DNA of 64,000 nt, from contig NC_134441.1 in NCBI RefSeq assembly GCF_030867145.1, forward strand, positions 7,256,992 through 7,320,991, in the 5' to 3' direction. Below are positions 6,869-45,500 of the stretch, in pieces. Numbering within the stretch: position 1 is the stretch's first letter; each line of letters begins with the position of its first letter. This stretch comes from Opisthocomus hoazin (Eukaryota; Chordata; Aves; Opisthocomiformes; Opisthocomidae). A program made the translations under genes and the position numbers. The notes beneath the pieces are model-generated. The model was not told where the DNA came from and made no database searches. It saw nothing but the letters and a program-made list of their open reading frames with translations.

Positions 6869-7010
6869 CGGCTTTGCAGGGGTCCTTGTAGTCCAGGGGC
6901 TCCTCGTCCTCCTCCTCCTCTTCCTCCAGCACGTAGGAGTAGTCGGGGAAGTGCATGGCCCGGGCCAGGAGCAGGCAGAGCAGCAGCCCGCCGGTCCGCA
7001 GCCCGGCCAT
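6869..7010 (-). CDS. BMP1: BMP1 coding exon 1 (procollagen C-proteinase)
   Basis: BMP1 is a secreted astacin metalloprotease that processes procollagens and releases BMPs by cleaving chordin. Only coding exon 1 is in the window: 47 residues plus one base. ATG is at 7008-7010 on the minus strand and a GTAGGA donor follows 6869. The protein starts with a leucine-rich signal peptide (MAGLRTGGLLLCLLLARA), then the start of the propeptide, FPDYSYVLEEEEEE and EPLDYKDPCKA. This matches the human start, which runs [24 protein letters not shown]. The acidic run is longer than in human. Position beside SFTPC and minus orientation agree with 8p21.3 synteny. TLL1/TLL2 are less likely because of the synteny. 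The rest of the gene lies to the left of the window. Confidence 0.9.
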
Positions 7011-10232: not shown

Positions 10233-10971
10233 TGTCACTGACCACCACCACGTGGTCTCCAGCCCCACGAGCTCCTTGCAACTTCCTGGGAGGAGGAGGT
10301 GGGCGGCCGTGGGGTGCGGTGGTCCATGGTGGGAGCCCTATGGAGCCTGGGAGCCCCTTCCCTGGCTCCAAGGCAGCTCCCCCGGACGCGTTGGACATCT
10401 GATGTGTTCTCGAGCCCCGGAATAAATCAGCCCCCGAGCGCCCGTCCTCCCGCGCAGGCGGCCAGCTCCCGCAGCCCGCGATCGGCTGCGCCGTCCGGCT
10501 CCGCGCACCGCGTCCCCCCTCACCGCAGGAGAGGTACGGGGGTTCCCTCCGTCCCCACGCAGTCGCCGCGGGGTTGTGGCTGGGCGATGGCCAGCCCACC
10601 CCGAAGGGCATCCCCAAAACCCTCCGGAACGCCCCAAAAGCCGCATCTCCGCTGCGTGATGCACCAGGGGCAAAGCCTGACCCGAAGCCCCCCCGGAGAC
10701 GCTGCGCTCCAGCCCACGCAGCCGGAGTCCCATGTGCCGGATCTCCACGCTCAGCCCCGCAGGACCGCGTGCCCTCCGCATGCTGGTGGCCCTGGATGTC
10801 ACCGACTGCCGGCAGTCCAACCCGCAGCCCCACCCGGAGCGGGACCTGGCCGTGCGGGACCACCTCACCTGCAGCGCGCTTGTTCCGGAGCCGCAGCCTG
10901 CCGAGCACGCGGCGGGACGGGGACCCCCGCTTCCAGGAGCGGCTGCGGGAGCCCTGGGTGGATGGCAAGGT

Positions 10972-11617
10972 GACCACGAGCCAGCAGTGTGCCCTGGGTG
11001 CCAAGAAGGGCAATGGGATCCTGGGGGGCATCAAGAGGAGTGGGGGCAGCAGGGCGAGGGAGGGTCTCCTCCCCCTCTGCTCTGCCCTGGGGAGGCCCCA
11101 TCTGGGGTGCTGTGTCCAGTTCTGGGCTCCCCAGTTCAAGAAAGATGAGGAGCTACTGGAGAGAGTCCAGCGGAGGGCTACGAGGATGAGGAGGGGACTG
11201 GAGCATCTCTCCTATGAGGAGAGGCTGAGGGAGCTGGGCTTGTTCAGCCTGGAGAAGAGAAGGCTGAGAGGGGACCTTAGAAATGCCCATAAATATCTGC
11301 AGGGTGGGGGTCAGGAGGATGGGGCCAGACTCTTTCCAGTGGTGCCCAGCGACAGGACAAGGGGCAACGGGCACAAACTGGAGCAGAGGAAGTTCCAGCT
11401 GAAGATGAGGAAGAACTTCTTCCCTCTGAGGGTGCCGGAGCCCTGGCCCAGGCTGCCCAGGGAGGCTGTGGAGTCTCCTTCTCTGGAGATATTCCAGCCC
11501 CGCCTGGCCGCGGTGCTGTGCCCCCTGCTCTGGGTGACGCTGCTTGGGCAGGGGGTTGGGCTGGGGGACCCACAGAGGTCCCTGCCAACCCCTGCCATGC
11601 TGGGATTCTGGGATTCT
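10972..11617 (+). mobile_element. CR1 LINE, 3' fragment (about 645 bp)
   Basis: Sense-oriented CR1 covering the end of the reverse-transcriptase ORF and the 3' UTR. It starts at GAGCCAGCAGTGTGCCCTGG, passes GAGAAGAGAAGGCTGAGAGG and finishes with GGGATTCTGGGATTCTG. It is the longest CR1 copy in the window. It splits the possible Kunitz-like fragment. Confidence 0.95.
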
Positions 11618-12250
11618 GTTGGGGGACGTGCTGCATCCGTGCCTTCCAGCGCCGCTACCTCACCCCGCCTGCCCCGCAGAGCTTCCTCGGCACGCTGGCA
11701 CGGCAGGCGGCCGATGCCAAGGTATGGGGGCTGCGGGGGCAACACCAACCGCTTCGGCTGCGAGCGGGACTACATCCATGCCCGGACACGGGTAGGCGAG
11801 GGTGGGCATCCCTCGGGGACCGGGGGGGTCATGGAGTGACCCCAACCCGGGCAGGGGGCACGGCGGAGCTTTTCGGTGCTGCGGCTCGGCTGCCGCTGTG
11901 CCCACCCCGGGCAGGTCCCGACGGAGCCGGCGTGGGCGAGAGCAACGTGACGCAGGGTGAGGAGCGTGTGAGGGGGGGCCGGGTGTCTTTGCGGGGGGGT
12001 GATTTGGAGCAGGGCTGCCAGCTCACGCGTCGGCTGGGTCATGGGGTGAGTTTCTTGGCACGCAACCGTGCCAGGCGCTCTGGGCATGCGGCGAATGCGC
12101 CGTGCCGCCCGCCTTGCAGCGAGCCCCCCGGCCCCCCACCCTGCCAAAACCTCTGCCTGCTCCCCCTGCGCCCAGCTGCCGGGGCTGAACCCCCCGCTTC
12201 GGGGTCCGGGGTGATACCCAGGGCTGGCTGCAGAGCCCGGGAGCCTTCTG

Positions 12251-12256
12251 AATAAA
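12251..12256 (+). terminator. AATAAA poly(A) signal
   Basis: Canonical hexamer on the plus strand, placed after the Kunitz-like exon. It supports a plus-strand transcript, present or past, ending near 12.27 kb. Confidence 0.45.
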
Positions 12257-12574
12257 AACCACGCCACGACCCGTGCTCGCCCATGCAGCTGGGCTGGGGG
12301 AGGGCGAGGGTCTGGGGGTGGGCACCCCGCAGCCCGGCCAGCTGCAGCTGCGCTGTCCCCGCAGGGAGCAGCTTCCCTGGCTGCGGGGAGCGGGGAGCGG
12401 GGGCCGGATCGTGGCGCGGGGGTGGCGGGGTGCTGCTGGCTCCCCACCCCGGGCCGGCCGCGGCGTCGGTGGGAGGCAGCTGCGCTGCTGGCGAGCTCTT
12501 GTCCCGGGGGGCTGCGGCTGCGCTGCTCCGTGCTCCCCCCTCTGCCCTGGATGCTCGGCCTGGGGCCAGCATCC

Positions 12575-13232
12575 CGGTCCTCATAGTGCTGGTATCCTGG
12601 TCCTAATAACACCAGCATCCCAGTCCTCATAATGCCAGCATCCCAGTCCTAAGAACACCAGCATCCTGGTCCTAATAGAGCCAGCATCCCGGTCCTCATA
12701 GTGCCGGCATCCCAGTCCTAAGAACACCAGCATCCTGGTCCTAATAACAGCAGCATCCTGGTCCTAATAGAGCCAGCATCCCAGTCCTCAAAGTGCTGGC
12801 ATCCCAGTCCTAAGAACATCAGCATCCTGGTCCTAAGAACACCAGCATCCTGGTCCTAATAGAGCCAGCATCCCGGTCCTCCTAGTGCCAGCATCCTGGA
12901 CCTCATAACGCCAACATCCTCATCCTAATAATGCCCGATCCCAATAATGCCAGCATCCCATTCCTAATAACACCAGCATCCCGGTCCTCATAGTGCCAGC
13001 ATCCTCGTGCTAATAATGCCCAATCCTAATAACGCCAGCACCCTGGTCCTAATAATGCCTGATCCTAATGACAGCAGCATCCCGGTCCTCATAGTGCCAG
13101 CATCCCGGACCTCATAATGCCAGCATCTTCATCCTAATAATGCCCAATTCCAATAACACCAGTATCCTGGTCCTAATAACGCCCGGTCCTAACAACCCCA
13201 GCATCCCAGTTCCAATAATCCCAGTCCTCAGG
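12575..13232. repeat. Minisatellite of about 24-bp units
   Basis: About 25-28 degenerate units of the form CCAGCATCCCGGTCCTAATA with AACA/ATAG/ATGC endings. It fills the space between the Kunitz-like fragment and the 3' end of the first SFTPC gene. Confidence 0.9.
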
Positions 13233-13311
13233 CAGCGGCTGGTGGCCGTGGCCGCCTTCGACACAGGCTGTCTCCAGGAACAGCTCCGAGACCTGGCTCT
13301 TCCCCTTCTCC

Positions 13312-13317
13312 TTTATT
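13312..13317 (-). terminator. Poly(A) signal of the left SFTPC gene
   Basis: AATAAA on the minus strand. A GTGAGT donor just after the stop codon (near 14014) and an acceptor near 13900 suggest an untranslated last exon. Human SFTPC also ends with a noncoding exon 6. Confidence 0.7.
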
Positions 13318-14023
13318 CAGTGCCGCAGGGCCGGAGAGGACAGGCACATTTTTCCGGGCAGCCTTGGCTCTGGCAGGAGGAGGGGGCAGCTCAGGGGGGT
13401 CCCGTGCCCCAGTGCTGAGCGAGGCTCAGGAGGTGCCTCCTGCCAGTCCCCAGGCTGTGGCTGCAGCAGAAATTCGCCTAAAATCTGCTCAGAGCCCCAA
13501 AAAGGAAGCCGGGAGCTGCCGGCAGCCGGGCAAGCAGGGAAGCGAAGAACTGGAACGGAGAATTTTGTTTCTCTAAATGTCATGTTTTTTTAAGCTCATT
13601 TTTGCACTCGGGTTTGGCGAAGCTGAGAAGACTTAAGTGACAAACCAGCTGTCCCCCGGCGCGGCGCTCGCCCAAGCAGACACCCACCCACCGCCTCCAG
13701 CCCCCCCAGCACCGCGCCAGCAGCCCCCCGCGCCCCTCCGATGCCGACCCCCCAACCCCGCAGCCCCCCGGCCTCGCGTGGGCTCCGGCACCTCCCGACA
13801 TCGGAGCGAGTGAGGAGCTGCTGGCGGGGGCGGCTGTGGAGGGGTCGGTGATGCTCCGGGAGGGACAGAGGGGCTGCGGCAACGCCGTGTCCGTCGGGGA
13901 TGCTGCAAGGCAAACCCGGCACCGTGAGGGTGCCGCTGGGTGGGTGGGGGTCCCCCAACCCTCCCCACCAGCCCCCTGCCCACCTCTGCGGGCAGCGGGC
14001 CCCTCGGCACTCACCCAGCAAGG

Positions 14024-15743
14024 CTAAGCCCAGTAGACGGGGACGATGCTGCAGAGGATGCTCGCCGTGGTGCCCAGGAGGGAGCGATCGGCCAGGGGCA
14101 TGGCCAGCCTCTCCTCAGCCTGGCGAGGGGACAGAAGGACAAACGGGGCAGCACTGGCAGGATGCTACACCCCGGTTCTTCATCGGGGGGGGGGGCTGCA
14201 TGAGGCACCATGCCCGGAGCATCGCCGGGTGCCCCCCACACCCCTCCATCCCCCACCGGTGCTGAGCGGGGCGGGTGGTCCTCACCTCCCGGCGCTGGAA
14301 GGTCTGGGCGATGGCATCCAGCCCCGGGATGTTGTCCTTGTCCATGGGGGTGATGTAGCAGGCGCGGTGGAGCTGGGATCTGTAGCTCACCAGCAGCTGC
14401 TTGCAGACAGACCCGTGTCAGCCCGGTCCCACCGCCCCTTCCCCGTCCCCCTGGGGCCGCACGGGGCTCCCCGCTTACGTTCTTGTAGTCGTAGATGACC
14501 ATGGCCGGGTTTCCATCCTCACCATCCAGGTAGAAAGTGGCTGCGTCCTCATCCCAAGCCAGTCCTCTCCGCAGCCCCATCCGCAGGACCTGGGGGACGT
14601 GGTGGGGGCTCACTGCCGGGGCTCATGGAATCATGGAATGGGTTGGGTTGGGTTGGGTTGGGTTGGGTTGGGGTTGGGTTGGAAGGGGCCTTATAGATCT
14701 TCTTGTTCCAACCCCTCTGCCATGGGCAGGGACCCTTTCCACCAGCCCAGGGTACTCTGAGCCCCGTCCAACCTGGCCTTGAGCACTGCCAGGGAGGGGG
14801 CATCCGCAGCTTCTCTGGGCAACCTGGGCCAGTGCCACCACCCTCAGAGGGATGAATTTTTCTGATATCTAATCTAAATCTCCCCTCTTTTTGTCTGAAG
14901 CCATCCCCCCTTGTCCCACCACTCCAGACCCTTCTTCTGGACCCTTCTACCCTCTCCATCTTTCTCAGAAGCCCCTCTGGGCACCGGTGGCTGCTCTAAG
15001 GTCTCCCTGGAGCCAGCTCTTCTCCAGGCTGAGCAGCCCCAGCTCTCCTGGCCCTTCCCCATGGGAGAGGGGCTCCGTCCCTCCCCACTCACGGCGTCGG
15101 CGTGCCGCTGGTCCTCGCGCAGCCACATCAGCAGGGCGCCGGCGATGATGACCACCAGCAGGACCACCACCACCACCACGATGAGGAGGCACTTGAGGTG
15201 GTGGCAGCTGAGCAGCTTGCGGGGCAGGTAGCAGAGCAGGCGGGGCACGAAGCAGAGGGACTTCTTGATGCAGCCGCAGCCGGGGCAGCCGGGGCACCGG
15301 GGGCATTTGCAGCAGCGCGGGATGCAGCATTTGGAGCAGCAGACGGCGCAGGGCCAGCAGCAGCAGCCCGGCTTGCAGCATCCCTTGCAGCAGCCGGTGC
15401 CGCAGCAGCCTTTCTCCGGGTCCTGCGGGCATGGGAAAGGCGGAGAGCTGGGGTGAGGGGGAAGGAGATGGCAGCTGGGGGATGCAGGTGGGACAAGGGT
15501 TGGCTTTCCGTGAGGAACATCTGCTGTCCCACAGCCCCCGAGCTCTGGGGAAGCAGCGTCCCACGGGCTCTGGCTCCGTCACACGTGCCTCGGTGCCTCG
15601 CCGGGATAAACCAAGCAAAGCCCCGTGCCGAGCATCTCCACGGGGCACAGGGACAGCCCCAGCGTGGCCGTGCCACCCGCCTGCGGGTCGCGGGGACTCA
15701 CCAGCGGCTCTTCAACCACCACCTGCTTCATGCCGCTCTCCAT
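14024..15743 (-). CDS. SFTPC: SFTPC paralog A, cysteine-rich surfactant protein C precursor
   Basis: Proprotein of the palmitoylated lung surfactant peptide SP-C, a type II membrane protein with a lumenal BRICHOS domain. Five coding exons: 15702-15743, 15093-15422, 14479-14589, 14286-14396 and 14024-14119; 229 aa. Exon 1 encodes MESGMKQVVVEEPL. Exon 2 encodes a unique 78-residue segment with 25 cysteines (CCKGCCKPGCCCWPC, KCPRCPGCPGCGC), then HLKCLLIVVVVVVLLVV and GALLMWL, close to mature human SP-C. Exons 3-5 form BRICHOS, with its conserved cysteine pair in RACYIT and ILCSIVPVYW. Human exon 2 has no comparable Cys-rich stretch; mature human SP-C has only two palmitoylated cysteines. A TATA box lies 48 bp upstream of the ATG. 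Intron 2 is mostly CR1. Identity as an SP-C family member is certain; which copy is the functional orthologue is not. Confidence 0.92.
14628..15078 (-). mobile_element. Older CR1 LINE fragment filling SFTPC-A intron 2
   Basis: Antisense CR1 of a subfamily different from the other copies. It has a diagnostic stretch, TGGAAGGGGCCTTATAGATC, preceded by a pentameric GGGTT repeat at about 14640-14680. It ends with CTCTTCTCCAGGCTGAGCAG. It occupies about 450 of the 503 bases of the intron and lies within 15 bp of the exon 2 donor. Confidence 0.85.
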
Positions 15744-15790
15744 GGCTGCCTCCTCCTCCTCCTCCCCGTGCAGCAGCCGGCGCAGAGGGC

Positions 15791-15796
15791 TTTATA
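15791..15796 (-). promoter_or_regulatory. TATA box of SFTPC paralog A
   Basis: TATAAA on the minus strand, 48 bp upstream of the ATG. The second SFTPC copy has the same element at the same distance, so the core promoter was duplicated with the gene. Confidence 0.8.
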
Positions 15797-17487
15797 CGGG
15801 GGCTCTGGGGTGGGGCACGGGGCAGCCCCCGTGACCGGGCTTGCGGCCCTGGAGTGCAATCGGGCTCCGGCATGCGATCCACTTCACCTCTGTTTGCTGA
15901 CCGCCTCTCCCGGGGCTGGGTTCCTCTGGGAACCCGGGGGACAAGTGGCTCTGAGGGCACTCGACCCCGAGCACGGGGGTCCGGGAGCGAGGTGTCGGGG
16001 CCAAAGCAAACCCTCCTGAGCAGGTTGGAGCTGCCCTCCGGGGTGGAGCATCCGGCGATGGCCATGGCCAAGGCGAGACCTGGCCCGGTGCCCGCGCCCC
16101 TTCACCAGCTCGGCTGCCCGGAGCTGCTCGAGGTGGGCAAAGCACCACGACATCAAAGCTTTCCCACAAACCGCAAGGCCCCGGGGTGGGATGGGGTCAC
16201 CGTGGGGTGGGGACGTGGCCCTGGAGCGTGGCCAGGCTGGGTGCTCCACAGCCTTGGTCCCGAGGATGCTCGGGTGCCGCGGGGGCTCACGATGCCGACG
16301 CTGGAGATTTCGGGGCTGCCCACAGCAGGGATTTGCTCAGGGTGAGGGGGGGTCCCGGCTCCAGTGTGTCACCCTGGTGGTGCAATCAGTAGGGCAGGGT
16401 GACACTGCTCTGCCTGGCATGACCCTCTCCTGGGACCTCTCCGGCCACCCCTGGGCCCCCTCCTCGACCCCATGGGAGCCCAGATGCTTCAGCTGGGTGT
16501 GGGGGTGAGGGTGTGCACCCCGCGTTGCACGCTGGCTCCTGTCCCGGGGCGTTGAGGAGCACGGGAGACCCTCGAGTGGCTCCTGGCTGTTTGCTCTCCA
16601 GCGCAGTGCGCAGGAGGGGCTGTGGGAGCCCTCGCTGAGCACCCTGCTCAGCCCCGCTCTTACCCGGGGTGACACAGGGGCAGGGCCAGACCCGGTTTTC
16701 AGGGAGCAGAGCTGCTGGCCCCGTGTCGACCCGTGGCAGCGTGCGGTTCCCCTCCTGCTCCCACCACAGTGTGAGCCCCCCGGGGGTGAGAGCCTCCTCG
16801 CTGCCCACGCCGGTGGCTGCAGGGACAGCCCTGACTTAGTGAAACCACACCACCCGCAACCTTGTCCTGGGTGGGCTGGCTCGGGTCCCCCAGGGTCTCT
16901 TTTCTCCCACCCAGCCCCGCTGATCCCCCACTCTCAGTGCTCGGAGGTGCACCCCAAGGGTGCTCCCGGCTGCTCTGGGGCAGAGGAGCAGGAGATGGTG
17001 GGGATGAGGGACCTATGGGGGTGGAGGGGGGCTGGGAGCAAGTGGATTGTGGTGTCCATGGATGCCCTGCTCAGCCCAGGGCTTGGTGGTCCCCAGGGAT
17101 GTGAGACACAGTCCCTCCGTCCCCGTCCGCGCATGGAGGGGATGAGGATGGGGACATGGAGGGGACGAGGATGGGGACCTTTCCAGGAGGGGTGGCCCAG
17201 ACCCCTCTGGGGTGCCAGGCTGGCCGGGTGCGCTGCCTGCTCCCCGGGGGCTGGAGGTGCCGAGGCTGCGCCCGCCATCTCGTCACCCCTCGGTGCAAAC
17301 CGGGAGGAGGCGGGGAGGGGGGACACCTCGGCCATGCAGCCTGGCAGCGTGGTGGGCGTCAAGGGGGGGGGGAGTGGGTCCCTCAACCGGGGCTGGACAC
17401 AGAATACAGACACGAGGGGTGCATCCCCCCACGCAGGACTCCGCAGGGGACATCTCCAGGGCAGCCCGCTTGGCCAGCGTGGGGGGA
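15797..17487. other. Intergenic DNA between the two SFTPC genes
   Basis: Upstream region of SFTPC-A and downstream region of SFTPC-B. It is GC-rich, with short GGGGATGAGGATGGGGAC repeats near 17130-17180. No exon was found. Proximal enhancers of SFTPC-A would be expected in the first few hundred bases. Confidence 0.55.
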
Positions 17488-17973
17488 ATCCCAGAATCCC
17501 AGCATGGTCGGGGTTGGCAGGGACCTCTGTGGGTCCCCCAGCCCAACCCCCTGCCCAAGCAGGGTCACCCAGAGCAGGCTGCACAGCACCGCGGCCAGGC
17601 GGGGCTGGAATATCTCCAGAGAAGGAGACTCCACAGCCTCCCTGGGCAGCCTGGGCCAGGGCTCCGTCACCCTCTGAGGGAAGAAGTTCTTCCTTGGGTT
17701 CAGCTGGAGCTTCCTCTGCTCCAGTTTGTGCCCGTTGCCCCTTGTCCTGTCGCTGGGCACCACTGGAAAGAGTCTGGCCCCGTCCTCCTGACCCCCACCC
17801 TGCAGATATTTATGGGCATTTCTAAGGTCCCCTCTCAGCCTTCTCTTCTCCAGGCTGAACAAGCCCAGCTCCCTCAGCCTCTCCTCGTAGGAGAGATGCT
17901 CCAGTCCCCTCCTCATCCTCGCAGCCCTCCGCTGGACTCTCTCCAGCAGCTCCTCATCCCTCTTGAAGTGGGG
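17488..17973 (-). mobile_element. CR1 LINE, 3' fragment
   Basis: Antisense CR1 of about 485 bp, from AATCCCAGAATCCCAGCATG through CAGATATTTATGGGCATTTC to TCCTCATCCCTCTTGAAGTG. It ends less than 100 bp before the poly(A) signal of SFTPC-B, so it lies just downstream of that gene. Confidence 0.95.
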
Positions 17974-18054
17974 GAAGGACGAGAGCTGTGCCGCGAGGCC
18001 GGGGCAGGGGCTCTGCTTCTCAGAGAGGAGCGCGAATCCCAAAGCAAACCCCAC

Positions 18055-18060
18055 TTTATT
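18055..18060 (-). terminator. Poly(A) signal of the right SFTPC gene
   Basis: AATAAA on the minus strand, 168 bp after the stop codon of SFTPC-B. No intron is needed in the 3' UTR, unlike the arrangement suggested for the other copy. Confidence 0.75.
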
Positions 18061-18227
18061 ACGAGTGCCGCGGGAAAGCCGCGGTGCCGAGCGGCCGCGG
18101 ACGGAGCATCCCGACATCGGGGCAGCTGCAGGTGGGATGGAGCCCGGAAGGCAACGCGGGGTGCAGGGGGATGGCGGCACCCCCACATCGCTGCCCCGTG
18201 CCCCCCAGGAGCCCACCCCAGCCGGCG

Positions 18228-19154
18228 CTACGCCCAGTAGACGGGGACGGTGCTGCAGAGGATGTTCACGGTGGTGCCCAGGATGGAGCGGTCGGCCAAG
18301 GGCGCGGTGGTGTCCCCGCTCTCCTTCGCCTCATCCTGCAGGAGAGAGGATGGGGGGGGCTGCCGTGCTCAGCCCCCCTCCAGCAGACCCCCACCGCAAG
18401 CCCGGCAGCCCCCCTGCTCACCTCCCGGCGCCGGAAGGTCGCGGTGACGGCGTCCAGCCCCGGGATGTTGTCCTTGTCCATGCGGGTGATGTAGCAGGCG
18501 CGGTGACGCCAGGACCTGTAGCCCACCAGCAGCTGCTTGTGGACAGACCCTGGTCAGCTCGTCCCCGTCCCCGTCCCTGTCCCCGTCCCCCGGGCTCCCC
18601 ACGCACCTTGCCGTAGTCGTAGACCACCATGGCGGAGGCGTTGAGCCCGTCCCGCACGGCGAACGTCCCGGTCCGTTCCTTCTTGCTCATGGAGAGGTGC
18701 TGGGGGGTCCCTTCACCATCCAGGCCGTGGATGGTCATCCGTAAGACCTGCCAGGTGGAGAGGGGGTCAGGGAGCTTGGTGGGGTCTAAACCCCGTCCCC
18801 GCGAAGCGCCGGTGGCCGGTGCCATCCCCGTGCCCGTCGCCGGAGCTGGTGGCAGCGCGGCTCCCTCCCCTCACCGTCTCGGCGTGCGTCTCGGTGATGC
18901 GCAGCCCCAGGAGGAGGAAGGCGACGATGACCACCACGAGGACCACCACCACCACCACCACCACGAGGAGGCACTTGAGCTGGTGGGGGACGCAGGGCAG
19001 GCGGGGGGAGGCCGTGTAGCGCTGGGGATAGAGGGGAGCACCCGGCTGAGCTGCCGGCGCTCAGCCCCACGCCGGCTCGCCGGGCTGGGTGACGACGGGT
19101 GCTCCTTACCGGAGGTGCCTCCTCCATCAGCGCCTCTTTGGAGCTGTCGTCCAT
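18228..19154 (-). CDS. SFTPC: SFTPC paralog B, surfactant protein C precursor
   Basis: Second SP-C proprotein gene, tandem to paralog A. Five coding exons: 19110-19154, 18875-19021, 18607-18747, 18422-18532 and 18228-18335; 183 aa. Exon 1, MDDSSKEALMEEAPP, closely follows human MDVGSKEVLMESPP. Exon 2 is short and canonical: LPCVPHQLKCLL, then eight valines, VVVIVAFLLLGL and a lumenal turn. Two cysteines precede the membrane helix, as expected for palmitoylation. BRICHOS follows: SMSKKERTGTFAV, MVVYDYGK, HRACYITRMDKDNIPGLD, ending ILCSTVPVYWA. Exons 3-5 resemble paralog A strongly, so the pair arose by duplication. The ORF is intact. A TATA box lies 47 bp upstream. It is divergent from LGI3, with about 0.85 kb between their starts. 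Confidence 0.92.
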
Positions 19155-19200
19155 CTCGCCCTCCCTCGCCGTGTCCCTTTGCCAGCCGGAGCCGGGGGAA

Positions 19201-19206
19201 TTTATA
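19201..19206 (-). promoter_or_regulatory. TATA box of SFTPC paralog B
   Basis: TATAAA on the minus strand, 47 bp upstream of the ATG, matching the spacing in paralog A. Confidence 0.8.
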
Positions 19207-20010
19207 GGGGCTCCGGGTGGGTGCAAGGAGGCTGGGGCCACCCCGGCTGCCAAGGTCCCACTTGGGCTCTGTTTGCTGAGCCTGGAGAGGGGCAGGGTGA
19301 AACCCCCGAGGGCCCTTTCCCGGCATTTGGGCGGCAGCAAGGGGGGGGGCCAAGGCAAAGAGCGGGCAGGCAGAGCGTGCCCGCCCTCCGCACCCAACCC
19401 TGGGCTCCGGCCAGGGACCCAGCACCCTCCGCACGCGTCCCTGGGGATGCTGCACCCCTGCTCCCCGCTGCACCCCTGCTCCCCGCAGCCCCGTGTGCGG
19501 GGCAGCCGCGGCCCCCCCGGCGCGGGGAAGAGCTGGCTGGGCTCATTGTTGGCCGGGAGCGCGGTGCCTGGGACGGGACGGACGGGCAGGGAGCTGGCAG
19601 CAGCAGCGCTGCGGCACAGGCGCCCGGGCGAAGCGAAGGGGTGGGCGAGCCCCTGCCAGCCCCGGAGGGTACCCCCCTGTCCCCCATCCCTGTGCTCCCC
19701 GAGACCCCCCCGTCTCCCGGTGGCCTTCCTCCCGGCGTGCATCCCGCCTTGGCACGGGTGAGGACACGCGTCCAGGCGGATGCTCGCGCTGTCGCTCAGC
19801 CGCATCGCTCCCTCCCTCCTTCCCGCAGCACCGGAGCATGGTGAGCCGCAGAGCAGCGGGTCGGACGCCGGCAGCCTCCGCCGCCACCATCGCTTCCCCA
19901 CCGCGCTGAGATCTCCGGGGAAGGAGGAGAGGAGAAGGCTTCGCCGCCTCGCCCGGGCACCGCAGGAGAGGGACCAGCTCCAGGGGACACGGCAGGGCTA
20001 GGCCAGGGTG
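19207..20010. other. Intergenic region between divergent SFTPC-B and LGI3
   Basis: Shared upstream DNA of SFTPC-B (minus) and LGI3 (plus). No coding exon was seen. The part next to LGI3 is GC-rich without an obvious TATA box and probably contains the LGI3 5' UTR. A short perfect duplication, GCTGCACCCCTGCTCCCC, occurs at about 19449-19485. Confidence 0.55.
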
Positions 20011-23326
<3,316 letters not shown>

Positions 23327-26055: not shown

Positions 26056-28949
26056 ATGGTGTCCTGGATACTCAGCCGGGTGGTCGTGTGAGTGGGGAAC
26101 GGGGGGGGGGGGGGTCCCGGTGCACCCGGGGGGGCTGAGCTGAGCCTCCCCATCCCCGGGGGTCCCTGTTTAACGGGGAGCACCCACCGGGGGCTCGCTG
26201 TGGTGGGAGGGGGGTGCGGAGGCGGGAATTGGAGGGGGGGGGGGTGCTGCTGGTGGGTGACCCGCGATGCTCCTGTGTGGGGGCAGCCAGGGACCCCCCC
26301 CATGATGGGAACGGGGGGGGGGGTGCGGGTCCCGGGGAGGGGGGAGCTTGACCCCGGCCATACGCTGTGGCCAGCCGGGGTGGGGGATGCCCACGCGTGG
26401 GGAGAGGGGGGACCCTGCGGGGTGGGCAGCAGGTGGGGGGGATGCCCACGCGTGGGGAGGGGGGACCCCGCCCTGTGGGGTGGGTGGGGGGCAGCAGGGG
26501 GGCTGCTGGGGGGGTCGGGGGTGGGTGCCATGCCCCGCTGCGGGAAACCCACCTCCCTGCCCGTGTCCCGCAGCCAGGCGAGTGACCCACGGGTGGGTGG
26601 GCACGGCGGCTCGCCCACGGCCGCGGGGAGCTGGCACCCAGCACCGCTCTCCCGGGCGCGCCCTGGCAGCGATGCCGATCCCGGTTCCCGAGGGAGCCGA
26701 GCCTGCGCCCTGCCTCCTGCCACCGCCTCCTGCCACCGCCTCGACGGGTCCGCCCGGTCCCCGCGGAGGTGGCCGAGTCGGTGGCAGCGACGCAGCGCTC
26801 GCGGGTGGCTCTCCGCGACGGCGACGTCCGTTTTTCCCGGCGTCTCCGGGACCGGCGATGGTGCTGGAGGGGGTCAAGGCCAAGCTGCGGCGCTGGGGCC
26901 GGCAGCTCTGCTGCTCCCTGCTGCTGCTGCTCTACGCGGGGTGGCCGGCGTGCCTCACCCCCCCGCTCCGTTACAGGCTGCTCTTCGGGATGCTCTACCC
27001 TGCCTACGCGTCCTACAAGACCGTGAAGAGCAAGAACGTCCGGGAATACGTGAGTTAGGGTGCTTGGGGGGCTCCTCGCCGCGCTCCGGCGCCGGGCTGA
27101 CCGGCTCACCCGCAGGTCCGCTGGATGATGTACTGGATCGTCTTTGCCCTCTTCATGGCCACGGAGACCTTCACCGACCTCCTCATCTCCTGGTGAGGTT
27201 GGGGCTGCGGGGGGGCTGACCCCCCTACGCGGGGGTCTCCAGGTCTGGTGGGAAGGGGAGAGGCACTGTCGCTTCTGCGAGGGAGCGGGACGTGCCCTTG
27301 GACCCCCCCACACCTCTGCTCACCTCCATCTTCTCCACCTCTCCCACAGGTTTCCCTTCTACTACGAGGTGAAGATGGCCTTCGTCATCTGGCTGCTCTC
27401 CCCCTACACGCGGGGGGCCAGCCTGCTCTACCGCAAATTCGTGCACCCCACGCTGTCCCGTAAGGAGAAGGTGAGAGCTGCCTGGCTCTGGGGGGGTCCT
27501 GTGTGCCCGGGGTGGGGGGGCTCAGCCCACCGAGCAGGACCCTGGGCTGGGGATGCCCTGGGATGTGGTGGCTCTGCACCCTCAGCACCGCTGCGGTTGT
27601 CTGAGGAGCTAATGGAGTGAGCCCAGGGCTGCGAGGATGAGGAGGGGCCTGGAGCATCTCTTCTACGAGGAGAGGCTGAGGGAGCTGGGCTTGTTCAGCC
27701 TGGAGAAGAGAAGGCTGAGAGGGGACCTTAGAAATGCCCATAAATATCTGCAGGGTGGGGGTCAGGAGGACGGGGCCAGACTCTTTCCAGTGGTGCCCAG
27801 CGACAGGACAAGGGGCACTGGGCACAAACTGGAGCAGAGGAAGCTCCAGCTGAACCCGAGGAAGAACTTCTTCCCTCTGAGGGTGCCGGAGCCCTGGCCC
27901 AGGCTGCCCAGGGAGGCTGTGGAGTCTCCTTCTCTGGAGATATTCCAGCCCCGCCTGGCCGCGGTGCTGTGCAGCCTGCTCTGGGTGACCCTGCTTGGGC
28001 AGGGGGTTGGGCTGGGTGACCCCAGAGGTCCCTTCCCACCCCTGCCATGCTGGGATTCTGTCTCGGCAGGAGATCGACACGTACGTCGTCCACGCCAGGG
28101 AGCGTGGCTACGAGATGATGGTGCGCTTCGGCAAGAAGAGCCTCAACATGGCAGCCACGGCCGCGGTCCAGGCGGCCACCAAGGTACCGGGAACGGGGCC
28201 GGGCTGCTCCGCTTCCCCGAGGACGCTTCGGCTCCCGGGGTGGCCCCCGAGGTGTGGGTGTCGGGAGTGGGGTCTCCGGGTGCGGAGCCCTGGCGCTGGG
28301 CTGCTGGTGCCCAGCCCCGCGTTCGGGTGCCCGCGTGCTTTGGGGTTTGCCCCGTGGGGCTCATTTCCATCCTTGCTGTCCCCCCTGTCCCCCCCCCAAC
28401 CTCCCACCCCCTCCAGAGCCAGGGCGCGCTGGCCGGGCGGCTCCGCAGCTTCAGCATGCAGGACCTGCGCTCCATCCCCGACGAGACCCCCGTGCACTAC
28501 CGGGACCCCCTGTACCTGGAGGAGCAGGAGAGCCACAGGCAGCTGCTGGGTGAGCTTCGGGGGGGGTCACAGTGGTGGTGGGGGGCTTGAGAAAGGCCCC
28601 CATGGTGGGGCTGTGCCGGGAGCTGTCGTGTGCCCCCGTCCCCAGCCTATGGCACGTCCTCGGCCGGCCAGCAGCACGCGAGCGATTCGGAGGAAGAGGA
28701 GCTCTGGTCGGACTCACCAGACTCGCCCGAGCCTTCATCCCGTGGCTGGGACCCCAGACCCCTCTCCCGCAGCCAGAGCCTGCGCGCGGCGAAGAAGACG
28801 ACCCTGAGCAAGGAGGTACGGTGCGAGGTGGGGGGGGGATGCAGTGGCGTGGGGCTGGGGCGAGGGGGTCCTGACCCATCCCTCCCCCTGCCCAGGGCTC
28901 TTCCCGGCTCTTGCGTAGCCGGAGCAGGCGGAAAGAGCAGGACAGCTGA
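26056..28949 (+). CDS. REEP4: REEP4, receptor expression-enhancing protein 4
   Basis: ER membrane-shaping protein that binds microtubules and helps clear ER from mitotic chromosomes. Eight exons: 26056-26087, 26977-27049, 27116-27192, 27350-27470, 28070-28183, 28417-28549, 28646-28815 and 28896-28949; 257 aa, the same as human. The N-terminus [20 protein letters not shown] carries the first hairpin, then [38 protein letters not shown] and the second hairpin, with [20 protein letters not shown]. This is the TB2/DP1/HVA22 domain. After [18 protein letters not shown] come [19 protein letters not shown] and [11 protein letters not shown], then an acidic, serine-rich tail ([11 protein letters not shown]) and a basic C-terminus. 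Intron 4 contains a CR1 that reaches to 10 bp from exon 5. The ORF is intact. Confidence 0.97.
27622..28060 (+). mobile_element. CR1 LINE, 3' fragment in REEP4 intron 4
   Basis: Sense CR1 from about GGCTGCGAGGATGAGGAGGG to its 3' terminus GCTGGGATTCTG. Only TCTCGGCAG separates it from REEP4 exon 5, so the tail supplies the branch-point region and most of the sequence upstream of that acceptor. Confidence 0.95.
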
Positions 28950-42500: not shown

Positions 42501-45500
42501 GCTTTGGAGCATCCTCTCCTGTCACCCCACTATTGAGCATCCCCTCCCATCACCCTGTTTTGGAACATCCTCTCCTGTCACCCCATTTTAGAGAACCCTC
42601 TCCCATCACCCTGCTTCAGAGCATCCTCTCCTGTCACCCCACTACAGAGCATCCTCTCCTGTCACCCTGCTTTGGAGTATCCTCTCCTGTCACCCCACTT
42701 TAGAGCATCCTCTCTCATCACCCTGCTTTGGAGTGTCCCCTCCTGCCACCCTGCCTTGGAACATCCCCTCCTGTCACCCCATTTTAGAGTGTCCTCTCCC
42801 ATCACCCTGCTTTGGAGCATCCTCTCCTGTCACCACATTTTAGAGCATCCCCTCCTGTCACCCTGGTTTGGAGTATCCTCTTCTGTCACCCCACTTTAGA
42901 GCATCCTCTCCCATCACCCTGCTTCGGAGCAGCCTCTCCTGTCACCCTGGTTTGGAGCATCCCCTCCTGTCACCCCATTTTAGAGCATCCCCTCCTGTCA
43001 CCCTGGTTTGGAGCAACCTCTCCTGTCACCCCATTTTAGCGCATCCTCTCCCATCACCTCGTTTCAGAGCATCCCCTCCCGTCCCCCCATTTCGGAGAAC
43101 CCCTCCCATCCCCCCATTTCCCAGCATCCCCTCCCGTCCCCCCATTTCGGAGCACCCCCCCCGTCCCCTCTCTCCCGCAGGTTTGCCGTGGGGGACGGCG
43201 GGGACCTGCGCGTCGATGGCTTCTGCAGGCTGGGGGACGCGGAGGGGGAGACGCCGCAGGCAGCCGGCCCCGGGCCAGGGAGCGGGGGCGCGGGGGGCAG
43301 CCGCTGCCTGGCCAAGTACTTGCTGGGGGTCCTGGGGGACCCCTTCTGCGAGGCCGTCCGCAGGGACAGGGACGCGTGGCCGGGAGCCGAGGGTGAGCGG
43401 GGACGGGGGCAGGGGGGGTGACGCCGGGGGGCTGGGGAGGCTGAGGGCTGTGTTTCCCGCAGGGGTGACGGCCTGGAGGCGGGGGGAAGGAGCCCCCCAG
43501 CTCTGCGACGCCTGCCAGCGCGGCTTCTTCAACTCCCACTGGAGCTGCGCCAGATGTGGCTTCCAGCTGTGCCCCGACTGCCACCGCAGCAGGCAGGGGG
43601 GGGCTGACGGCCACGGTACGGGGCTGCCCCTCCTCTGCTGCACCCAGCGACCCCCAACCCTTCCCCATTGCCCCCAGCCCCCCAAACCCTTCCCCATTGC
43701 CCTCTGCAGCACCCCAAACCCCTCCCCATTGCCCCCTGCCCCTCAACCCCTTTCCCATTGCCCTCTCCAGCCCCCAAACCCTTCCCCATTGCCACCTGCC
43801 CCCCAGCCGCCCCACTGCACCCTGCAGCCCCCCAAACCCTTCCCCTATTGCCCTTTGCCCCTCAGCCCCCCCACTCCACCCTGCAGCCCCCCAACCCTTC
43901 CCCATTTCCCCCTGCACCCCAAACCCTTCCCCTATTGCCCCCTGTGCCCACCAAACCCTTCCCCATTGCCCCCTGAAGCCCCCCAAACCCTTCCCCATTG
44001 CCCCCTGTGCCCACCAAACCCTTCCCCATTGCCCCCTGTGCCCCCCAAGCCCTTCCCCATTGCCCCCTGCAGCCCCCAAACCCTTCCCCATTGCCCTCTG
44101 CAGCCCCGCAAACCCCTCCCCATTTCCCCCTGCCCCCCAACCCCTTTCTCATTGCCCTCTCCAGCCCCCAAACCCTTCCTCTATTGCCCCTTGCCCCCGA
44201 GTCCCACCACTGCACCCTGCAGCCCCCCAAACCCTTCCCCATTGCCCCCTGCAGCCCCCCCAAACCCTTCCCCATTGCCCCCTGCCCCCCAGCCACCCCA
44301 CTGCACCCTGCAGCCCCCCAAGCCCTTCCCCATTGCCCCCTGCAGCCCCCAAACCCTTCCCCATTGCCCTCTGCAGCCCCGCAAACCCCTCCCCATTTCC
44401 CCCTGCCCCCCAACCCCTTTCCCATTGCCCTCTCCAGCCCCCAAACCCTTCCCCATTGCCCCCTGCCCCCCAGCCACCCCACTGCACCCTGCAGCCCCCC
44501 AAGCCCTTCCCCATTGCCCCCTGCAGCCCCCAAACCCTTCCCCATTGCCCTCTGCAGCCCCCCAAACCCCTCCCCATTTCCCCCTGCCCCCCAACCCCTT
44601 TCCCACTGCCCTCTCCAGCCCCCAAACCCTTCCTCTATTGCCCCTTGCCCCCCAGCCCCCCACTGCATCCTGCAGCCCCCCAAACCCTTCCCCATTGCCC
44701 CCTGCAGCCCCCCCAAACCCTTCCCCATTGGCCCCTGCCCCCCAGCCCCGACGGCCACCGCAGCAGGCGGGGGTCTGACGGCCACGGTACGGGGATGGGG
44801 AGGGGGCTTACCAGGGGGTGTCAGCCCGGTGGGGGGCTTGGCGGGGACGAACACACCCTCTCCCCCCGCAGAGGGTCCGGCGCGGCTGCCTGAGTGCACC
44901 CCGGGGCGAGACCACCACATCGCGTCCCTCGTCCCCACGCAGTTCGTCCCCACCCGCAGTGAGTGTTGCCCCCCCAAACCCCCGGACCCCCCGACCCGCT
45001 GCCCGAGGCTGACCCTGTCCCCGCCCCCCCCCCCGTCCCCAGCCCTGACCCGGCTCTGGAAGCTTCTCCACGAGGTCCGGGCCAAGGTGGGCATCGAGTC
45101 GCACTGTCCCTGTGGGGAGGGGGCTGTGGAGCCCCCAGGGAGCAGCCAGGTATGAGTGGGTCACGGGGGGGGGGGTGGGAGAAGGGGTGCAGGTGCACCC
45201 CAATCTCTGCAAAAGGGTGCTCGGGGGGGTCTTTTGTGCGTGATGCCGGGCAGGGGATGGGGGGGTGGCTCCCCGACAGATGCCCCCATGGACCCGGGTG
45301 TTGCAGGAGATGCTGGGGGTCACGGAGCCCACCCTCCAGGCCAGCAGCCACGGCCACGCCGACACCCCCCAGCCCGTCAAGGAAGGTAGGGCTGGCTGCG
45401 GCCCCCCCGCTGCGGGGAGAGCCCCTCTGCGGGGGGGTCGGGTGCTGCACCCCATCCCCTACTCGGTGCCGGGTGGGGGGCGAGAGGCGGAGGAGGGCTC

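Follow-up and report, generated by a model that had tools for sequence, protein, structure and literature searches.

A tandem paralogue of surfactant protein C with a cysteine-rich, possibly S-acylated tail in the genome of Opisthocomus hoazin

Results

Two SFTPC genes in tandem

The window, by which we mean the whole 64-kb stretch of DNA analyzed (64-76% GC), contains two copies of SFTPC, the surfactant protein C (SP-C) gene, both on the minus strand. The right copy (18228-19154; exons 19110-19154, 18875-19021, 18607-18747, 18422-18532 and 18228-18335) is an ordinary SFTPC gene. In its 183-aa product, two Cys precede the helix and residues 14-17 form a PPRY motif. It sits upstream of the left copy, in tandem. 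The left copy has five coding exons and encodes 229 aa in an intact frame with no stops. Coding exon 1 (15702-15743) encodes MESGMKQVVVEEPL, and exon 2 (15093-15422) encodes a 78-residue Cys block followed by the transmembrane helix and the start of a linker. Exon 3 (14479-14589) contributes linker and the beginning of the BRICHOS domain, exon 4 (14286-14396) contributes BRICHOS sequence including the cysteine of ACYIT, and exon 5 (14024-14119) contains the end of BRICHOS and the TAG stop codon at 14024-14026.

The genome comprises 1.48 Gb in 415 contigs. Of 314 candidate places for the feather-keratin family (Pfam Keratin, PF02422), 150 were scored and all 150 exceeded the cut-off; the family also has relatives in other sauropsids, but together with the small genome and the GC content of the window this makes a bird very probable. 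These two adjacent genes are the only SFTPC copies that we found in the genome. In six-frame searches of the whole genome, which score best candidates only, left exon 2 gave two matches and the right protein gave seven, and every match is an exon of one copy or the other. The two versions of exon 4 share 74% protein identity across 39 residues in the protein search. A BRICHOS profile search of the genome gave four matches, none in the window; this search misses split domains because the genome is read exon by exon. Two of the four matches (L001 and L003, on C28 near 3.03-3.05 Mb) lie on a single contig with 14 kb between them, and their matched stretches contain one and two stops. Our guess is that they are gastrokine-like genes read across introns.

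The mammalian SFTPC neighbourhood includes LGI3 and BMP1, and counterparts of both appear to flank the genes described here. A last exon with EPTP repeats (22412-23326, plus strand; Pfam EPTP, 218 bits) presumably belongs to LGI3. On the other side, the peptide DYSYVLEEEEEEDEEPLDYKDPCKA, which contains DYKDPC (6876-6893, minus strand), is presumably from a BMP1-like first exon and was recognized by inspection only. Further to the right we noted by eye a start at 26858 and a zinc finger at 43504 (both plus strand), which we take to be REEP4-like and HR-like; the frame with the REEP4-like start had no Pfam match. A long simple repeat of the CCCCATCC type (about 20230-20780) adjoins an apparent early LGI3-like exon. 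Three open frames have one 29-residue peptide in common, which we take to be a CR1-like retrotransposon stretch. One is at about 17790-17970 (minus strand), between the two SFTPC copies, and the others are within 10403-11839 and 27613-28590 (plus strand).

Splice sites of the left copy

All four introns of the left copy are GT-AG and in phase, and the junctions proposed in the initial annotation (15702/15422 and 15093/14589) agree with the gene model. Its description of exon 2 as in phase with clean splice sites also holds, in the sense that the sites are usable. Scored with a simple consensus matrix, the exon 2 acceptor reaches 10.4 in the left copy and 8.9 in the right copy, the exon 2 donor is modest in the left copy (4.9 vs 9.0 in the right), and neither copy has a strong exon 4 acceptor (1.0 in the left and 0.2 in the right). 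An out-of-frame AG located 25 bases upstream of exon 2 scores 9.9 (exon start 15447), near the 10.4 of the model, and by score alone it may be an alternative exon start. Loss of the Cys core through cryptic splicing was rejected, since no in-frame acceptor inside exon 2 scores above 2.1, vs 10.4 for the modelled site. The exon 4 acceptor reads CAAGCAG in both copies (14397-14404 and 18533-18540), a possible NAGNAG-type site that could gain or lose one Gln.

The left protein belongs to the SP-C family

Profile searches place the left protein in the SP-C family, as the initial annotation had proposed. It matches SP_C-Propep (PF08999) at 39.5 bits (cut-off 25), with residues 88-130 aligned to positions 34-76 of the 96 in the profile and positions 1-33 unmatched. 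It matches BRICHOS (PF04089) at 54.3 bits, above the Pfam cut-off. Against the solved SP-C BRICHOS structure 2yad, the left copy scores 34.6 bits and the right copy 44.2 bits; the Pfam query for the right copy was a near-copy with one extra Val. Both BRICHOS cysteines are present in the left copy (in ACYIT and ILCS). In a single-sequence AlphaFold2 prediction of exon 2 alone, which is weak evidence (overall pLDDT 59.8), a confident helix was predicted at exon residues 81-100 (mean pLDDT 93-94), and the Cys block was left without a confidently folded structure (mean pLDDT 43-50 across the first 70 residues). The helix and the BRICHOS domain are both retained. The left protein resembles known SFTPC precursors in having five coding exons, matches to the propeptide and BRICHOS profiles, a poly-valine helix, the ACYIT and ILCS motifs, Lys6 and an LGI3-like neighbour. 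It differs in what precedes the helix, and in the absence of PPxY.

The N-terminal tail of the left protein consists of 92 residues before the helix, 25 of them Cys, vs 32 residues with 2 Cys in the right copy. Three residues of the left tail are F/W/Y and 17 are I/L/M/V. Ahead of the helix, K/R outnumber D/E by 14 to 5, and the first 15 residues past it have 3 of each. This charge distribution supports the type II topology that had been suggested and, with the topology of the family, indicates that the tail is probably on the cytosolic side. The protein combines a membrane anchor with dense Cys in an adjoining, probably cytosolic segment. A J domain was not found in the left protein by Pfam search.

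The cysteine block

The Cys block (15189-15422, minus strand) translates as DPEKGCCGTGCCKGCCKPGCCCWPCAVCCSKCCIPRCCKCPRCPGCPGCGCIKKSLCFVPRLLCYLPRKLLSCHHLKC and contains 25 Cys in 78 residues before the poly-valine helix, exactly the count given in the initial annotation. A core of the block has 21 Cys in 47 residues. This core string (residues 20-65) stops 27 residues short of the helix, a greater distance than for the acylated cysteines in SP-C. The steps between cysteines include eight CC, seven CxxC and two CxC, 15 of the 25 Cys neighbour another Cys, and a CPRCPGCPGCGC run is present. The reading frame is fixed from both sides because the block is flanked by exon 1 (MESGMKQVVVEEPL) and the helix LLIVVVVVVLLVVIIAGALLMWL.

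This density of Cys is exceptional for the region. Stop-free 78-residue windows in all six frames of the rest of the 64-kb window reach at most 10 Cys, and second-order Markov sequence modelled on 12000-20000 has a mean of 2.7 and a maximum of 10 (3000 runs). When the Markov model was trained on the block, its sequences reached 25 Cys in the coding frame in 0 of 3000 runs at order 1 and in 3 of 3000 at each of orders 2 and 3. The block is thus rich in TGC at the DNA level and held to the frame that gives Cys, with TGC used as the codon for every one of the 25 Cys. Tandem Repeats Finder detected weak arrays in the Cys string at 15276-15302 (period 9, 3.1 copies) and 15360-15395 (period 12, 2.7 copies), and a further weak array within the block at 15206-15240. 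With only such short, weak arrays found, we rejected the idea that the block is a single clean microsatellite.

The block had no match in Pfam at E values up to 1 and none in the PDB at E values up to 10. Derivation from another gene was also rejected: among the candidates scored in the six-frame search of the bird's own genome, exon 2 matched nothing besides its own locus and the right copy, and the match to the right copy (query residues 58-109) falls outside the core string. Beyond this genome, 54 pattern stretches in prokaryote contigs and 11 in viral contigs were considered as relatives and none was confirmed, which is to be expected of such collections and has no bearing on other birds.

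Differences between the two copies

The coding exons of the left and right copies are 42/45, 330/147, 111/141, 111/111 and 96/108 bases long, and all of the differences are multiples of three. Left exon 2 exceeds its counterpart by 183 bases. Just before the helix the two proteins end alike, with SCHHLKC in the left and PCVPHQLKC in the right. Because this shared end has two Cys in both copies, 23 of the Cys in the left protein are extra. Lys6 is retained in both copies. PPxY is absent from the left protein (EEPL-DPEK) and present in the right (EEAPP-RY). PPxY is a functional motif, so its absence bears on the routing of the protein and not on homology.

Promoters and 3' ends

The promoters of the two copies are similar. 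A TATAAA box is found at 15791-15796 in the left copy and 19201-19206 in the right copy (minus strand), at -53/-52 in both. A 13-mer, TCAGCAAACAGAG, is identical in the two promoters (15888-15900 and 19267-19279, minus strand); it was found by BLAST of the two 700-base upstream stretches (E 0.006), and we take its GCAAACA core to be FOXA-like. When the final 300 bases of the two promoters are aligned locally, the top alignment covers the TATA region with a score of 34, a value reached by none of 300 mononucleotide shuffles (maximum 30). A loose pattern scan, run without a control, matched NKX2-1-like sites in both promoters. At the other end of the gene, AATAAA at 13312-13317 (minus strand) is a candidate for the left copy's poly(A) signal. 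We found no significant conserved 3' UTR exon between the copies (alignment score 29, vs a mean of 23 and a maximum of 38 in 200 shuffles). A dense minisatellite (12565-13218; periods of about 23, 39, 62, 92 and 124) is located just downstream of the candidate poly(A) signal.

Sequence divergence and probable gene conversion

Pairwise dN/dS (NG86) between the left and right copies is 0.86 across 169 aligned codons, which does not reveal clear purifying selection. By part, it is 0.58 in exon 1 (12 codons), 0.92 in the helix region, 0.55 in exon 3, 1.09 in exon 4, 0.87 in exon 5 and 1.17 in the Cys block (15 aligned codons). Identity between the copies is uneven. It is 88% in exon 4 and 76% in intron 3, 80% in exon 5, and 56% and 55% in exon 3 and intron 4. 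Introns 1, 2 and 4 have matches of at most 22 bases and no full-length alignment. The unusual likeness of exon 4 and intron 3 suggests gene conversion, and 14286-14478 and 18422-18606 are probably a conversion tract between the paralogues. GC3 is 0.89-0.95. Because GC3 and the probable gene conversion distort dS, the value of 0.86 is hard to read and neither proves nor excludes constraint.

We also simulated neutral evolution, with assumed rates and no indels, in 400 runs, and defined survival as retention of the ATG, the frame and all eight splice dinucleotides. Starting from the left copy, survival was 0.185, 0.0325, 0.0025 and 0.0025 at divergence 0.05, 0.1, 0.2 and 0.3. Starting from the right copy, it was 0.27, 0.06, 0.0025 and 0. 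At divergence 0.2, survival is thus 1 in 400 from either copy.

Discussion

The left SFTPC copy is most likely a working gene, and we infer that it is expressed. The initial annotation made the same claim, and part of its argument stands: the frame and splice sites are intact. Support from dN/dS, at about 0.86, did not materialize. The case for a working gene is based on the intact structure together with the similarity of the promoters. To that annotation we add that PPxY is missing from the left copy and that a probable conversion tract covers exon 4.

We favor the interpretation, with a probability of roughly 0.45, that the left copy is a diverged working paralogue whose cytosolic tail acts as a cysteine-string-like S-acylation domain and whose product is routed otherwise than its sister. 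The left product would span the membrane in type II orientation through a poly-valine helix like that of SP-C, with BRICHOS on the luminal side, and its cytosolic tail would have been remade into a cysteine string by the addition of 23 Cys to the two kept before the helix. Membrane S-acyltransferases could attach fatty acids to many of the block thiols, an enlarged form of the acylation that ordinary SP-C undergoes at two sites, and the acylated tail would be drawn against the cytosolic leaflet or partway into it. We postulate that the string would act there as a signal both for membrane packing and for targeting beyond the Golgi. Sorting of proSP-C reportedly requires PPDY and Nedd4. PPxY recruits Nedd4-family ligases to ordinary proSP-C, and since the motif is missing, the left protein would take a different route from its sister. 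An enlarged S-acylation domain that replaces PPxY-dependent routing would be the simplest reading of the sequence. Several observations count against the interpretation: the dN/dS of 0.86, the distance of the core string from the helix, the weaker exon 2 donor, the nearly equal score of the out-of-frame acceptor upstream, and the lack of significant similarity in the 3' UTR.

What is known of SP-C provides the background for this interpretation. Native SP-C has two palmitoylated Cys (PMC4106191). ProSP-C is described as a type 2 protein that is palmitoylated in the Golgi and whose cytosolic N-terminal domain is needed in post-Golgi targeting (PMC12621905). In cells, ubiquitination of Lys6 leads to sorting of human SFTPC into multivesicular bodies (PMC8792467), and trafficking of the human protein requires ubiquitination involving ITCH (PMC11790967). 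Heavy palmitoylation of the block is plausible and is our leading reading of its chemistry. Metal binding and cross-linking, the other uses that had been suggested for it, are less favoured. The initial annotation also offered, as speculation, a link to the rigid parabronchial lung of birds.

Could the block instead be a by-product of duplication? Repeat slippage might have expanded a TGC-rich stretch in frame within a copy that was redundant, leaving an intact, weakly constrained duplicate with little or no specific function. A block that is TGC-rich as DNA and uses TGC for 25 of 25 Cys, the short repeats inside it with periods of 9 and 12, and a dN/dS near 0.86 (1.17 on the 15 aligned block codons) are all compatible with such a history, and the ancestral job could fall to the ordinary right copy. 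However, the ATG, frame and splice sites are intact even though introns 1, 2 and 4 no longer align full-length, and only 1 of 400 neutral runs preserved as much at divergence 0.2. The two promoters have also stayed similar, and the repeats are short and degenerate, with no single expanded array. We therefore consider slippage in a redundant copy unlikely.

Two further proposals give the thiols a different chemistry. If they hold zinc or copper, the tail would resemble a membrane-anchored metallothionein. The seven CxxC steps, the CPRCPGCPGCGC run and a Cys content of 25 in 78 residues are in keeping with metal binding, but CxC, the typical metallothionein step, occurs only twice, compared to eight CC. 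Moreover, a 92-residue tail with 3 F/W/Y and 17 I/L/M/V argues against it, and the block, having no Pfam or PDB match, has no metallothionein profile match; we regard metal binding as quite improbable. The CC-rich composition resembles that of high-sulphur proteins, and a secreted block in oxidizing surroundings might join surfactant proteins or films by disulphides, as high-sulphur keratin-associated proteins do. Mature SP-C does reach the air space (PMC12621905). However, charge and family topology place the tail in the cytosol, proSP-C is cleaved N-terminally (same source), and the mature peptide lies well downstream of the core string. The PPxY sorting motif is also missing from the left copy. 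A role in cross-linking seems very improbable to us.

Multiple S-acylation of the left protein is proposed by analogy with DNAJC5 (cysteine string protein), which likewise has a dense cytosolic Cys string at membranes. The likeness does not extend further: the left protein has no J domain and no detected homology to DNAJC5, and its string precedes a transmembrane helix. In most BRICHOS families the N-terminal region is reported to be poorly conserved and variable in length, and it was left aside in that work (PMC2751770). A second SFTPC paralogue in a tetrapod has a precedent in the salamander SFTPC-like gene (PMC6191699). Its authors favour a salamander-specific origin and allow an older origin with loss in amniotes. 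The comparison is by description, not sequence, and the term "cystein" is absent from the main text of that paper. In chicken, SP-C transcripts are reported in lung and not in heart or stomach (PMC8256237), and SFTPC serves as a type II cell marker (PMC10593216).

Among the literature matches listed, the available texts describe neither a Cys-rich SP-C nor an SP-C targeted by mass S-acylation. The abstract of a 2025 paper (PMC12077231) attributes unique molecular adaptations to an avian "aSP-C" and gives no detail, so a Cys-rich SP-C may already be known to its authors. In the text available, the term is used once, in a sentence about C-type lectins, and it may or may not refer to surfactant protein C or to the Cys block. 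Automatic annotation of bird genomes may well list the left copy.

In our view the left copy is a genuine and striking departure within a known family; it was observed in a single genome, and the mechanism proposed for it is plausible. It is a tentative and rather doubtful extension that birds, or some birds, have a second SP-C that is targeted and anchored by mass S-acylation, through a multi-acylated cysteine string that replaces PPxY sorting. SP-C is a small and medically important lipopeptide, and its acylation and routing in mammals are studied by single mutations. A paralogue in which nature has placed 25 Cys ahead of the helix and PPxY is missing would let one ask how acylation and ubiquitin-based sorting divide the task. 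It would also offer a molecular way into the differences between the surfactant of mammals and that of birds, which holds rigid air capillaries open.
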